From the NCBI RefSeq assembly GCF_022647505.1, contig NZ_CP071409.1:2852001-2916000 (forward strand): a stretch of 64,000 bases of DNA, in the 5' to 3' direction. Under the pieces are notes generated by a model. It saw only the letters and a program-made list of their open reading frames with translations, did not search any database and was not told where the DNA came from. Position numbers and translations under genes: made by a program. Every line of letters starts with the position of its first letter. Position 1 is the stretch's first letter. This document shows, piece by piece, positions 1,639 to 5,856 of the stretch. This DNA comes from [Pantoea] beijingensis. GTDB taxonomy: Bacteria > Pseudomonadota > Gammaproteobacteria > Enterobacterales > Enterobacteriaceae.

Positions 1639-1715
1639 GCGCCCTTAGCTCAGTTGGATAGAGCACCGGCCTTCTAAGCCGTAGGTCACAGGTTCGAATC
1701 CTGTAGGGCGTACCA
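1639..1715 (+). tRNA. argU: tRNA-Arg (anticodon TCT)
   Basis: The 77-nt sequence folds as a cloverleaf. The acceptor stem GCGCCCT pairs with AGGGCGT, the D arm is TAGCTCAGTTGGATAGAGCA, the anticodon loop CTTCTAA has anticodon TCT, and the T arm carries GGTTCGAATCC. CCA is encoded (1713-1715). It reads the rare AGA/AGG arginine codons. In E. coli argU lies near folD and its 3' end is the attachment site of prophage DLP12. Here the DNA immediately downstream is also accessory (mesXD), but no integrase or duplicated tRNA 3' end was seen. Confidence 0.95.
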
Positions 1716-1752: not shown

Positions 1753-2067
1753 ATGCCTGAAATTCAGTGATTTGGTTGATTTTAGCGCGTCGAAACTCTC
1801 TCAGCATCTACCCGCATCAAGTAATATCTGTTGGTATATGTGAGGGTACATTCCCGTTCAATGAAATCTTGTACCAACAAGCACCTCAAATGGCGTCTGT
1901 GACGTCCGGTCATAATGCGCCTGTTTTTTTGACTATGAGGCGATATATCACACCTATTAAGGTGGCTAAATTTAGTGTGCCACGAAAAGGGCGTGGAGAC
2001 GTTAGCGATCGTCCAGATCGCTAACCACCGGACTGAATCCACCTCAAATCATGGCTGTCTGGCGAGG
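1753..2067. other. Intergenic stretch between argU and mesD, with a perfect 10-bp inverted repeat
   Basis: No convincing gene is present. The overlapping short frames on both strands lack ribosome-binding sites and family features. The only structure is GTTAGCGATC (2001-2010) and its exact complement GATCGCTAAC (2016-2025) around a 5-nt loop, 43 bp beyond the mesD stop. It lacks a T run on either strand, so it may be a Rho-assisted 3' end structure or a protein-binding palindrome. Confidence 0.5.
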
Positions 2068-3099
2068 TTATTTAGCCAGGAGTTCTTTTCGAACGATTTC
2101 TGCGCCAGCACTTAAAGCATCCAGCTTGCCTCTTGCGACTCCGCGAGGCAAAGGAATCATGCCACAGTTAGTGCAAGGATAGAGCTTGTCGGCGTCAACA
2201 AACTGAAGTGCTTTGCGAAGAGTTGCAGCAACTTCCTCCGGTGTCTCAATGGTATTCGAGGCCACGTCAATGGCACCAACCATCACCTTTTTACCTCGAA
2301 TAAGTTCCATTAGCTCCATGGGAACATGAGAGTTTTGGCATTCCAGTGAGATTATATCAATATTAGATTTCTGCAGTTTTGGAAAAATCTCTTCATACTG
2401 CCGCCACTCTGATCCCAGCGTCTTTTTCCAATCTGTATTAGCCTTAATGCCATAACCGTAGCAAATATGCACAGCAGTTTCACATTTCAGCCCTTCAATT
2501 GCCCTTTCTAACGTGGCAATTCCCCAATCGTTCACCTCATCAAAGAAAACATTAAATGCAGGCTCATCAAATTGGATAATATCGACGCCAACAGCTTCTA
2601 ATTCTTTGGCTTCTTCATTAAGAATTTTAGCAAATTCCCAGGCTAATTTTTCACGGCTTTTATAGTGATTATCATAAAGCGTATCTATCATAGTCATGGG
2701 ACCTGGCAGGGCCCATTTAATGGGGTGATCAGTTTGCTGACGTAAAAACTTAGCATCTTCAACAAAAACAGATTTTTGACGACTGACAGGACCAACGACC
2801 GTCGGTACACTCGCATCATACCGATTACGAATTTTAACGATCTCACGTTTCTCAAAATCAACGCCGTTCAGGTGCTCAATAAATGTAGTAACAAAATGTT
2901 GACGGGTTTGCTCACCATCACTGACAATATCAATACCGGCCTGCTGTTGGTCTTCCAGGCACAAGCGTAGAGCATCTTGTTTGCCGTCTATTAATTCCTG
3001 GTCCTGTAATTTCCAGGGCGACCAGAGTGTCTCAGGCTGTGCCAACCAAGAGGGTTTAGGTAAGCTGCCAGCAGTCGACGTCGGTAATAATTTTTTCAT
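2068..3099 (-). CDS. mesD: Core (folate-independent) methionine synthase, MesD family
   Basis: This 343-residue protein corresponds to the catalytic C-terminal barrel of cobalamin-independent methionine synthase (MetE) and lacks the N-terminal folate-binding half. Zinc/homocysteine ligands expected from MetE are visible: H211 and C213 in HICYGYG, E253 in ISLEC, and C312 in CTNCGM. Established knowledge: MesD proteins of aerobic bacteria make methionine from homocysteine without methyl-folate or cobalamin. They need a DUF1852 partner and oxygen. That partner is the gene 25 nt upstream in the same direction, so the two form an operon. An AGGGG ribosome-binding site precedes the ATG. The methyl donor in this family is not known to me. 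Assignment to MesD rather than a generic MetE-like protein rests on size plus the DUF1852 neighbour. Confidence 0.9.
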   Translation of the reverse strand: MKKLLPTSTAGSLPKPSWLAQPETLWSPWKLQDQELIDGKQDALRLCLEDQQQAGIDIVSDGEQTRQHFVTTFIEHLNGVDFEKREIVKIRNRYDASVPTVVGPVSRQKSVFVEDAKFLRQQTDHPIKWALPGPMTMIDTLYDNHYKSREKLAWEFAKILNEEAKELEAVGVDIIQFDEPAFNVFFDEVNDWGIATLERAIEGLKCETAVHICYGYGIKANTDWKKTLGSEWRQYEEIFPKLQKSNIDIISLECQNSHVPMELMELIRGKKVMVGAIDVASNTIETPEEVAATLRKALQFVDADKLYPCTNCGMIPLPRGVARGKLDALSAGAEIVRKELLAK

Positions 3100-3124
3100 A
3101 ATAGATGCCCCTGTGTTTGGTTAA

Positions 3125-4108
3125 TCAAAGAACGCAATTAGCAGACCATTGTTCAAGAATAGTTTGGTACGGTTTAATAAAATTCTCTTCAGTAAACTTT
3201 CCTTGCTCAATAGCCAACTGGCTACGCTCTTCCCGATCATAAACAATTCGAGTTAAAGAGTAATCCTGCTGATTCAAGCTGGGTTGATAGCATTTTCCTG
3301 CTGCAGAATTAGCATTATAAATCTCAGGTCGGTAAATCTTCTGGAAAGTTTCCATCGTGCTGATGGTGCTAATAAGCTCAAGATTAGTGTAATCACTAAG
3401 TAAGTCACCACTAAAATAAAAAGCCAAAGGCGCAACACTATTTGCAGGCATAAAATAACGGGACTTCAATCCCATTTTGCTAAAATACTCATCGGTCAAT
3501 GAAGATTCATCTTGCTGATATTCAATACCCAGGACAGGATGTTCATTACCCGTTCGATAATAGGTATTTTTACTCGATACGCTTAAACATATAACAGGCA
3601 TTTTATTGAATTTATTTTTGTACGCGTCTGAATGAACAAAATATTTAAATATATTACCGTGTAGACAGCCGAAGTCATCAGGCGTACTAAATCCAGGTTT
3701 GTTTTTATTGTGAGCTGACAGTAATACGCTAAAGTCATAATCTCGCACATAAGAGGAGAAGTTGTTCCCTACAATACCGTCAATGCGCTGATTGGTTTTT
3801 TTATCAATAATATTTGTTTTCAATATTTCAATCACTGGGAAGGTGCCATGATTGTCTTCAATATCAACCTTTAACTCAGCAGAAATGATTTCAAGCTCGA
3901 CAGAATAGCGATCGCTTTTGGGATTATCCCAATGCGCCAGAGCATTAAAGCGATTGTCAATCATCACTAAGGCGTTGCGCAAATTCTCCTGGCGTTTCTC
4001 ACCTCTGGCTAAATTAGCAAAATTGGTAGTAATACGCGTATTTTCAGAGGGGTTATAGTTTTCGTCGAAACAAAGGCTCTTAATCGCAAATGTAAATTTA
4101 TTATTCAT
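3125..4108 (-). CDS. mesX: DUF1852 protein, putative oxygenase partner of MesD (MesX)
   Basis: This 327-residue soluble protein has no signal peptide or membrane segment and matches the DUF1852 family in its N-terminal pattern (FTFAIKSLCFDENYNPSENT) and length. In the published work on folate-independent methionine synthases, DUF1852 proteins are required, together with O2, for MesD activity in vivo. The chemistry is unresolved and an oxygenase role is inferred there. Several His/Asp/Glu residues occur (for example HGNIFKYFVH and HWDNPKSDR) but I cannot assign a metal site. It is the first gene of the mesX-mesD operon. Its base composition is more AT-rich than the housekeeping neighbours, which is compatible with lateral acquisition next to argU. 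Confidence 0.88.
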   Translation of the reverse strand: MNNKFTFAIKSLCFDENYNPSENTRITTNFANLARGEKRQENLRNALVMIDNRFNALAHWDNPKSDRYSVELEIISAELKVDIEDNHGTFPVIEILKTNIIDKKTNQRIDGIVGNNFSSYVRDYDFSVLLSAHNKNKPGFSTPDDFGCLHGNIFKYFVHSDAYKNKFNKMPVICLSVSSKNTYYRTGNEHPVLGIEYQQDESSLTDEYFSKMGLKSRYFMPANSVAPLAFYFSGDLLSDYTNLELISTISTMETFQKIYRPEIYNANSAAGKCYQPSLNQQDYSLTRIVYDREERSQLAIEQGKFTEENFIKPYQTILEQWSANCVL

Positions 4109-4289
4109 CGTAATCTGGTATCCTGACTTCCGGTATAAATTCTGATTTTATTGCTTGCTATTCACGATTTCCCGACTTTCTTTACTCGTTTGCTCATTTA
4201 GCAGGCTTTATATTGTCTATTGTTAATCACAATGCACATTTTATGCCTGAGTCATTGATTGAGTAAAAGTGATTTAATTTCATTAAACA

Positions 4290-4302
4290 TGAGACATATT
4301 CA
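4290..4302. promoter_or_regulatory. Possible MetR-like half-palindrome upstream of mesX
   Basis: TGAGACATATTCA matches the MetR consensus TGAA-N5-TTCA with one mismatch and lies about 180 bp upstream of the mesX start. A single 13-bp match in AT-rich DNA can arise by chance. No MetJ-type AGACGTCT tandem was found in front of mesX. Low confidence. Confidence 0.25.
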
Positions 4303-4472
4303 TGATCATGCGTACCGACAGGGGCGGTGTTGGTACAGACGCCGCCTTCCAGGAGGTTTCATCCCGGAAGTCCATAGGGTTCTGAGGTCCGAACTGTCGT
4401 AATATGCTAAAAATCAGGTGTAAATAGCAGCGTGCCCAGATACTTCTTCTGCGATATGGCTATCGGATAGAG
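4303..4472. other. No gene recognised between mesX and the small membrane ORF
   Basis: Together with the mesX leader (from 4109) this makes a gap of about 360 bp. Nothing beyond the possible MetR-like site and AT-rich mesX promoter DNA could be supported. Confidence 0.4.
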
Positions 4473-4670
4473 TCAGCTAGCTGAATGAGCCAGCCCATTT
4501 CCCAGAGAAAGAATCGGCCCACCAGCATAAGCCATGAAATTAATAGCAAGTGCCGTCAGCGTGATAAGCGCCCGTGCCGCTATGTGGATAAGTGCCTTTA
4601 GGGCATGCCATAGCGGAAGTTGAAAAGCGAAAACGGCGATAAGCATGATTAAAGCTGCGATCTTTTTCAT
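4473..4670 (-). CDS. Hypothetical small membrane protein
   Basis: The 65-residue frame begins MKKIAALIMLIAVFAFQL and is almost entirely hydrophobic, with two likely membrane helices around residues 3-20 and 30-55. A plausible AGGGAT ribosome-binding site lies about 7 nt before the ATG. No family is recognised. It lies between the mesXD operon and folD in the accessory stretch next to argU and shares direction with mesXD, but a gap of about 360 bp argues against one operon. It could be a chance frame. Confidence 0.4.
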   Translation of the reverse strand: MKKIAALIMLIAVFAFQLPLWHALKALIHIAARALITLTALAINFMAYAGGPILSLGNGLAHSAS

Positions 4671-4989
4671 TTATATTTATATCCCTGTCTTATGTTACGT
4701 GATGTTGGAATCCTTGCTAAGCCAGAGTATCAGAATATTCCTATCACACAATCCTGAAGCATGAACAGTGCGTAAACTCATTGCGAGTAATTAATATCAT
4801 CTTCCAGATCGGTATTCGGCAAAATCGGATACTGATAGCACCCGGTAACATTAGTTTGCTTTACACGCCCATCCTCTCCCTCACCTTAATCATTCTGTTG
4901 CCACGAATCAGAGACTGACAGCCACGCACGCTTCTGCCAGAATAGGCGCATTCCCCGAATAAACGTAAAACAGATGGATTATCTCTCTG
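4671..4989. other. Upstream region of folD
   Basis: About 320 bp separate the small membrane ORF from folD. No gene, tRNA or clear promoter was identified; the only frame covering part of it is short, lacks features and runs antisense into folD. Confidence 0.4.
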
Positions 4990-5856
4990 ATGGCAGCAAA
5001 AATTATTGATGGTAAAACGATTGCGCAGCAGGTACGCCTTGAAGTTGCGGATAAAGTTCAACAGCGTCTGGCTGCCGGAAAACGTGCGCCGGGCCTGGCG
5101 GTGGTTTTAGTCGGCGAAAACCCGGCTTCGCAAATTTACGTTGGCAGCAAACGTAAAGCCTGCGAAGAAGTCGGTTTTATTTCACGCTCTTACGATTTAC
5201 CCGCCACCACTTCTGAAGCAGAGCTGCTGGATCTGATCGACACACTGAATAACGATGCCGAGATCGATGGCATCCTGGTACAGCTGCCTCTGCCAGCTGG
5301 CATTGATAACGTTAAGGTGCTGGAGAATATCTCTCCGGATAAAGATGTCGATGGCTTCCATCCATACAATGTGGGCCGCTTATGTCAACGCGCACCTAAG
5401 TTACGTCCCTGCACGCCGCGCGGCATCGTCACGCTGCTTGAACGTTACAATATCGATACCTATGGCCTGAACGCCGTGGTCGTCGGCGCGTCTAACATTG
5501 TGGGACGTCCTATGAGTATGGAGCTTCTGCTGGCGGGTTGCACAACGACCGTCACTCATCGCTTTACCAAAGATTTACGTCATCATGTGGAACATGCCGA
5601 TCTGCTGGTCGTTGCGGTGGGTAAGCCGGGCTTTATTCCGGGTGACTGGATCAAGCCGGGCGCGATCGTTATTGATGTCGGCATTAACCGACTTGAGAGT
5701 GGAAAAGTGGTGGGCGATGTCGAGTTTGATACCGCGTCCGAACGCGCGGCCTGGATTACTCCCGTGCCGGGCGGCGTAGGACCCATGACAGTCGCAACGC
5801 TGATTCAAAACACCTTACAGGCATGCGAAGCGCATCATGATGGAGCAGTAAACTAA
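4990..5856 (+). CDS. folD: Bifunctional methylenetetrahydrofolate dehydrogenase/cyclohydrolase
   Basis: FolD (288 residues, the usual length) interconverts 5,10-methylene-, 5,10-methenyl- and 10-formyl-tetrahydrofolate in the cytosol, using NADP. It supplies one-carbon units for purines and formyl-methionine. The catalytic Y50 and K54 sit in [16 protein letters not shown]. The C-terminal signature [10 protein letters not shown] is present, as is a Rossmann nucleotide-binding segment ([12 protein letters not shown]). Its stop overlaps the ybcJ start in TAATG, so the two are translationally coupled as in E. coli. Confidence 0.97.

Follow-up and report, generated by a model that had tools for sequence, protein, structure and literature searches.

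The mesX-mesD gene pair

The window analysed here, a stretch of 64,000 nucleotides from [Pantoea] beijingensis (positions 2,852,001 to 2,916,000 of NZ_CP071409.1, a single contig of 4.107 Mb), carries the adjacent genes mesX and mesD (together mesXD), the former being the one MesX gene found in this genome. A previous interpretation of the same DNA made without database searches, referred to in the following as the sequence-only reading, had described the pair as a folate- and B12-independent methionine synthase operon beside a tRNA-Arg gene. We followed this up computationally on the level of the encoded proteins, the upstream control sites and the genomic surroundings. The two genes are:

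3125-4108, minus strand: mesX (DUF1852, PF08908), 327 amino acids, putative O2-dependent partner supplying the methyl group
2068-3099, minus strand: mesD, 343 amino acids, core methionine synthase lacking the folate-binding half

Reading along the minus strand, mesX is followed after 25 bp by mesD, and both frames are open and of full length in the list of open reading frames. The upstream gene, which the sequence-only reading had assigned to DUF1852, was compared with the Pfam hidden Markov model and matched PF08908 at 617.5 bits over its full length (model positions 1-323 of 323, cut-off 25), a family now named 'Putative oxygenase MesX' and formerly DUF1852. MesD matched PF01717, the catalytic MetE domain, at 129.3 bits (Pfam), while its score against the folate-side domain PF08267 remained at 20.2 bits, under the cut-off of 27, in line with the earlier description of a core MetE-like synthase whose folate-binding half is absent. 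Among the NCBIfam models, NF006589/PRK09121 (core methionine synthase) scored best with 707.3 bits at a cut-off of 392, followed by PRK04326 with 229.4 bits, below its cut-off of 406. MesD further matched the solved protein 3rpd at 699 bits across residues 3-342. Since this match is a full one and 3rpd is called MesD by Price et al. (2021, PMC7857596; this and the other publications are cited from excerpts, to which all statements on their content refer), NF006589 most likely corresponds to the MesD type. The zinc and homocysteine residues of MesD are named in section 11 of PMC7857596, and the residues of the window protein matched to them, the zinc ligands H211, C213, E253 and C312 as well as the homocysteine residues S12, E63 and D178, are the same in all 152 aligned MesD sequences. 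Together, the NF006589 and 3rpd matches and the invariant residues favour a place of the synthase within MesD over one in the methylthiol-transferring MetE-like families outside it, which the sequence-only reading had named as the counter-case. The comparison with 3rpd, a MesD solved with selenomethionine, reveals sequence differences only, with the seven functional residues in agreement. MetE shares PF01717 and the zinc site with MesD, whereas MesD lacks the folate-binding N-terminal half, and the genome has a separate MetE.

The ratio of nonsynonymous to synonymous substitutions (dN/dS, Nei-Gojobori) relative to the nearest relative, locus L022, amounted to 0.068 for mesX and 0.015 for mesD, values that are an average over both lineages and in which a very recent loss of use would not show. 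Since both frames are open, dN/dS is low and the catalytic residues are kept, the pair is, judged by these sequence criteria, intact and maintained by purifying selection. Both genes lie on the same strand in the 141 loci that possess both (two of which, L001 and L112, are fragments of the genome that contains the window), and they are separated by 11-106 bp in 140 of these and by 688 bp in L134, where mesD is short.

Published MesD/MesX pairs are ACIAD3523/ACIAD3524 of Acinetobacter baylyi and Ga0059261_2929/_2928 of Sphingomonas koreensis (Price et al. 2021, PMC7857596). The window pair resembles these in the presence of both families, in the adjacency of the genes, in a synthase devoid of the folate domain and in the same zinc and homocysteine residues. 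Unlike them, it has no adjoining flavin reductase gene and its host also possesses MetE; moreover, it is for the published pairs that activity has been shown.

Putative control sites upstream of mesX

The region upstream of mesX contains three putative control sites:

4290-4302, minus strand: distal MetR-like box TGAATATGTCTCA, beginning 194 bp ahead of the mesX start codon ATG and differing in one base from TGAA-N5-TTCA
4270-4282, minus strand: proximal MetR-like box TGAAATTAAATCA, beginning 174 bp ahead of the mesX start codon ATG and differing in one base from TGAA-N5-TTCA
4240-4268, minus strand: likely promoter with a weak -35 element TTTTAC (4263-4268) and a -10 element CATAAA (4240-4245), 17 bp apart

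The boxes were compared to the MetR consensus TGAA-N5-TTCA (PMC13393422, PMC4239095), and the segment immediately downstream of the proximal box is likely the promoter, an assignment derived from the upstream sequences. A pattern made from both boxes has no other match in the window, and 100 shuffles gave none. Among 154 distinct mesX upstream regions, a TGA-N7-TCA pair spaced 20 or 21 bp is present in 91 (shuffled mean 0.04), TGA-N7-TCA itself in 146 (shuffled mean 15.0) and the strict TGAA-N5-TTCA in 46 (1.3 after shuffling). As the same genome encodes MetR (NF011950, 641 bits, cut-off 382) and two MetR-like boxes are located within 4270-4302, the pair would, by sequence, belong to the MetR regulon. 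PF08908-metE2 had already been placed in this regulon by Leyn et al. (2014, PMC4239095), and the window is alike in combining MetR-like boxes ahead of mesX with a MetR gene in the genome; the published motif is a single 15-bp ATGAA-N5-TTCAT, whereas the window exhibits two boxes with a spacing of 20-21 bp close to the end of the stretch that it has in common with other genomes (see below). The paired layout is what the present analysis adds, the MetR link itself having been published before.

Two further modes of control were considered. For MetJ, whose consensus is a tandem of AGACGTCT boxes, the best site in the 300 bp upstream of mesX in the window agreed with it in 9 of 16 positions, and a scan of 175 upstream regions gave no excess over shuffles except for three loci that agree in 13-14 of 16 positions, where about 0.3 such loci would be expected. 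Control of mesXD by MetJ was rejected because the window lacks a good box. A riboswitch scan of the window detected none near mesX. In seven of the nine alphaproteobacterial loci scanned, a cobalamin riboswitch was found up to 1 kb upstream of mesX; the scan of 11 further loci, among them Acinetobacter L071 and L074, gave none. The riboswitch lies on the strand opposite to mesX in L073, L082, L094, L096 and L141, while L140, which has one on each strand, and L145 harbor a riboswitch on the mesX strand directly ahead of the gene (4647-4868 and 4685-4897, respectively, both on the plus strand), and both of these loci are plasmids. This arrangement suggests that mesXD may be subject to B12 control in L140 and L145. 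Our search of the open-licence PMC literature returned no paper that links a cobalamin riboswitch with the core methionine synthase.

LysR genes were also observed in the vicinity of mesXD. Those scoring best as MetR are found in L138 (254 bits), L139 (209 bits) and L141 (202 bits), all below the cut-off of 382, and on L138, a plasmid of Acinetobacter variabilis, mesX, mesD, a flavin reductase gene, a TauE/SafE transporter gene and the MetR-like LysR gene are arranged consecutively. In L143, the LysR gene situated upstream of mesX has GcvA as its best-scoring model, under the cut-off. Acinetobacter L071 retains two MetR-like boxes; the Moraxellaceae have been described as lacking MetR (PMC4239095).

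Predicted reaction and the fold of MesX

From the gene pair and its control sites, we consider it highly probable (about 0.87) that the window encodes a complete and functional MesX-MesD methionine synthase cassette, which would be switched by MetR, use O2 and depend neither on folate nor on B12. In the proposed working, accumulation of homocysteine would cause MetR to bind both boxes ahead of mesX and thereby turn on mesX and mesD. MesX would then employ O2, probably together with reduced flavin from a reductase encoded elsewhere, to take a methyl group from an ordinary metabolite and present it to MesD, which would hold homocysteine as a zinc thiolate and move the methyl group onto it, so that methionine could be formed without 5-methyltetrahydrofolate or B12. 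In this scheme we infer the activation by MetR at the mesX promoter, the use of flavin and the nature of the methyl donor. For the MesD proteins of relatives, a requirement for MesX and O2, and none for MetF or B12, was reported by Price et al. (2021, PMC7857596), matching what the sequence-only reading had stated on the dependence of the family on DUF1852 and oxygen; section 13 of the same work predicts that MesX supplies the methyl group in an O2-dependent manner, perhaps with flavin. On the source of the methyl group, which the sequence-only reading had left open, the excerpts of PMC7857596, PMC12892962 and PMC13059711 name no donor, and in the open-licence PMC literature we found no later biochemical paper on the MesX/MesD family and none naming the donor.

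A full-length MetE, as well as MetH and MetF, was found in the genome of the window. Since MetE and MetH are already available, mesXD would represent a third route to methionine, as had been proposed. Two publications provide data on the use of such a route: expression of the MesX gene of Acinetobacter baumannii drops by about 8 log2 units with B12 (PMC12892962), and MesD homologues apparently allow two strains to avoid N2O toxicity (PMC13059711). The published expression data fit a backup role, and the MetR-like boxes in gammaproteobacteria together with the B12 riboswitch ahead of mesX on two alphaproteobacterial plasmids likewise fit a backup that would operate when B12-dependent synthesis fails.

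Several observations weigh against the functional, MetR-switched and O2-using cassette. Both boxes of the window deviate by one base from the strict MetR consensus, and the upstream regions share descent, so that the box counts given above are not independent trials. The N-terminal domain of MetE was matched in 37 of 37 genomes of the genus, which leaves the benefit of the cassette unclear. Finally, a flavin reductase gene accompanies mesX in none of the 64 Enterobacterales-named loci (62 of them with at least 1.5 kb downstream), and gene order therefore lends no support to flavin use in this lineage. Across all 174 mesX loci, many of which have short flanks, a flavin reductase gene is located in the flanks of at least 19, and these belong to Acinetobacter, Rhizobiales, Paracoccus, Nitrosomonas, another genome and a contig labelled Bacillus. 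Gene order hence supports the flavin link outside the Enterobacterales lineage and not within it. Two PF01613 flavin reductases are encoded elsewhere in the window's genome, neither of which adjoins mesXD.

We next turn to MesX itself, for which no solved chain was matched by sequence at E values up to 1. AlphaFold2 models were obtained with the window sequence first in an alignment of 54 rows (predicted local distance difference test, pLDDT, 86.0; predicted template modelling score, pTM, 0.88) and with P0165 first in one of 74 rows (pLDDT 89.3, pTM 0.89). Foldseek searches of both models against the PDB yielded no significant match (best E 0.26 and 0.38), none of the viral models was matched significantly by the window MesX model (best E 0.045), and known flavin-dependent oxygenase folds were not prominent among the Foldseek rows listed; both models represent the whole of MesX, and this negative search is compatible with a known or a flavin-oxygenase fold. 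In the structural comparison, all Z scores were below the level called a common arrangement. A hint towards GNAT proteins found no support in a profile comparison of MesX against 10 GNAT proteins of the same genome, which returned a probability of 0.0, and no Pfam family other than MesX was matched by more than 2 of 54 MesX members at E values up to 10.

These results bear on two more specific views of the enzyme. It is conceivable, although we regard it as doubtful, that MesX represents a structurally new class of O2-using enzyme with a fold that has no clear solved counterpart, which would cut a methyl group from a central metabolite (possibly a coenzyme A ester, given a faint GNAT-like sheet) and pass it on to a zinc methyltransferase; mesX and mesD would then form a complete folate-free and B12-free methyl supply line, spreading from one bacterium to another as a 2.25-kb cassette that includes a homocysteine switch. 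That MesX is instead a metal-dependent or acyl-CoA-binding enzyme and not a flavin-using oxygenase, with the donor being made by another O2-dependent route, appears unlikely to us in view of the low Z scores, the best Foldseek E values of 0.26 and 0.38, the profile probability of 0.0 for the GNAT proteins and the failure of any other Pfam family to match more than 2 of 54 members. A different objection concerns the use of the pair, which might be a silent relic that was acquired and is unexpressed or unused since MetE and MetH suffice. The presence of both enzymes in the genome and a G+C content that still differs from that of the flanks (see below) would agree with such a relic, but the frames are open and of full length, dN/dS lies at 0.015-0.068 relative to L022 and both the catalytic residues and the boxes are kept, which renders it very improbable. 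The functional cassette is the preferred reading. Both the enzymes (in 2021) and the MetR link (in 2014) have been published before, and the gene pair is a common one; the interest resides in the chemistry of MesX, to which the window contributes a compact and intact copy and little else. If the reaction of MesX were solved, it would disclose a methyl source outside folate one-carbon metabolism, and the compactness of the cassette would allow simple tests in other hosts.

Distribution, signs of lateral movement and the argU-folD junction

The stretch that the window shares with other genomes was delimited by blastn against the collected loci:

2060-4307, minus strand: stretch common to genomes, comprising the boxes, the promoter, mesX and mesD

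Of 189 loci with blastn hits, which include some matching only the argU or folD flanks, 145 have the left end of homology at 2050-2099 and 119 the right end at 4300-4349, and from this clustering of the ends we derive a common stretch of about 2.25 kb. Its base composition is distinct, with a G+C content of 0.36-0.43 in 500-base windows within 2251-4000 versus 0.50-0.55 in windows of the flanking genes, and with a third-position G+C of 0.36-0.39 in mesXD versus 0.53-0.58 in folD, cysS and the EamA gene. In a tree of 152 rows, built after removal of the pieces belonging to the window itself, of identical pairs and of copies that were short or scored low, the window groups with L022 (93% identity over 670 columns) near Pantoea copies, some of them plasmid-borne (local support 90, not starred), and the tree requires 14 changes of genus label. 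A single clade of the genus was rejected by the approximately unbiased test (p-AU), both for its 30 rows versus the other 122 (p-AU 9.5e-6) and versus 35 hand-picked rows (30 versus 35; p-AU 1.2e-46); L038, L042, L047 and L052 were counted within the genus, their MesX being identical to that of genus genomes. Such MesX identity with genomes of the genus is seen for loci named Erwinia or Winslowiella. The flanks of 62 Enterobacterales copies (61 of the 64 Enterobacterales-named loci plus the window) fall into 27, 31, 35 or 37 groups depending on the cut-off, with the window always alone, and into 17 groups at looser linkage. Hence, mesXD looks like a laterally moved cassette that would bring its own control sites. 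The lateral acquisition proposed by the sequence-only reading is supported by the low G+C, by the rejection of the single genus clade and by the absence of mesXD from the corresponding site in 20 of 20 relatives (see below). Beyond the right end of the common stretch, an open reading frame of 65 amino acids at 4473-4670 (minus strand) has no match in Pfam or NCBIfam and is unmatched in the loci of other genomes.

Of 37 genus genomes, 33 have MesX, as do 78 of 295 sampled genomes of the family (36 of 154 genera) and 25 of 299 genomes of a phylum-wide sample, and a match is carried by 209 of 72,556 plasmid records. The cassette is thus not rare in the genus or the family. In the homologue searches, the best 8000 candidates were scored and 120 of these listed. 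Degraded copies were noticed as well: in genome G162 a broken MesX was matched as two pieces (C1:1477238-1478201), and genome G375 contains partial extra MesX matches (L135 and L136), one of which has an internal TGA. The mesXD pair of L086, on a contig labelled Bacillus subtilis SK6B4, is nearly identical to that of Pseudochrobactrum L095, and L086 is probably a contamination or a wrong label.

The cassette is flanked in the window by the following features:

1639-1715, plus strand: argU, tRNA-Arg(TCT), oriented to folD in reverse of 20 of 20 relatives examined
4990-5856, plus strand: folD, flanking the other side of the cassette, its upstream region conserved from about 4904
499-1419: EamA-family transporter gene (PF00892), just upstream of argU

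The tRNA-Arg gene that the sequence-only reading had noted beside the pair is therefore present and is read as argU. In the window it faces folD at a distance of 3,274 bp, whereas it faces away from folD at 180-895 bp in 20 of 20 regions of the genus examined. Among the 36 other genus genomes, these 20 relatives all lack mesXD in the interval from argU to folD, and a common argU-folD site for mesXD was rejected for this reason. Downstream of argU, the sequence can still be recognised in relatives, with L193 as the best case (up to window base 1879), and the EamA-family gene is located 1.4-2.8 Mb from folD by contig coordinates in eight of nine relatives, the ninth being without a match. Since argU is reversed and the EamA gene is distant in relatives, we conclude that mesXD resides at a rearrangement junction, next to a tRNA gene into which phages integrate in relatives. 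The distance of 1.4-2.8 Mb in eight of nine relatives led us to reject a small inversion confined to this site as the sole event, and at least two rearrangements seem to be needed.

The pair might also have arrived on a phage or an island that integrated at argU, and in favour of this, two phage integrases (PF00589) were matched near argU in 11 of 21 regions, with full-length copies in L191, L194 and L205 and fragments otherwise. The window, however, is among the ten regions without an integrase match, a search of it for exact repeats of at least the final 11 tRNA bases, as expected of an att-like site, found none, and argU is reversed with a formerly distant gene now adjoining. An integrase-borne island at argU was rejected on the grounds of the missing integrase match and repeat, and we regard arrival by phage or island as quite unlikely. 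Hence, of the 'argU-linked accessory spot' described in the sequence-only reading, the accessory character of the locus is borne out by the integrases in relatives, whereas the window itself displays a rearrangement junction with neither integrase nor repeat. The full-length integrase genes of the relatives are situated at 1247-2410 in L191 and at 1280-2443 in L205, the copy in L194 is 96% identical, and eight regions contain fragments.
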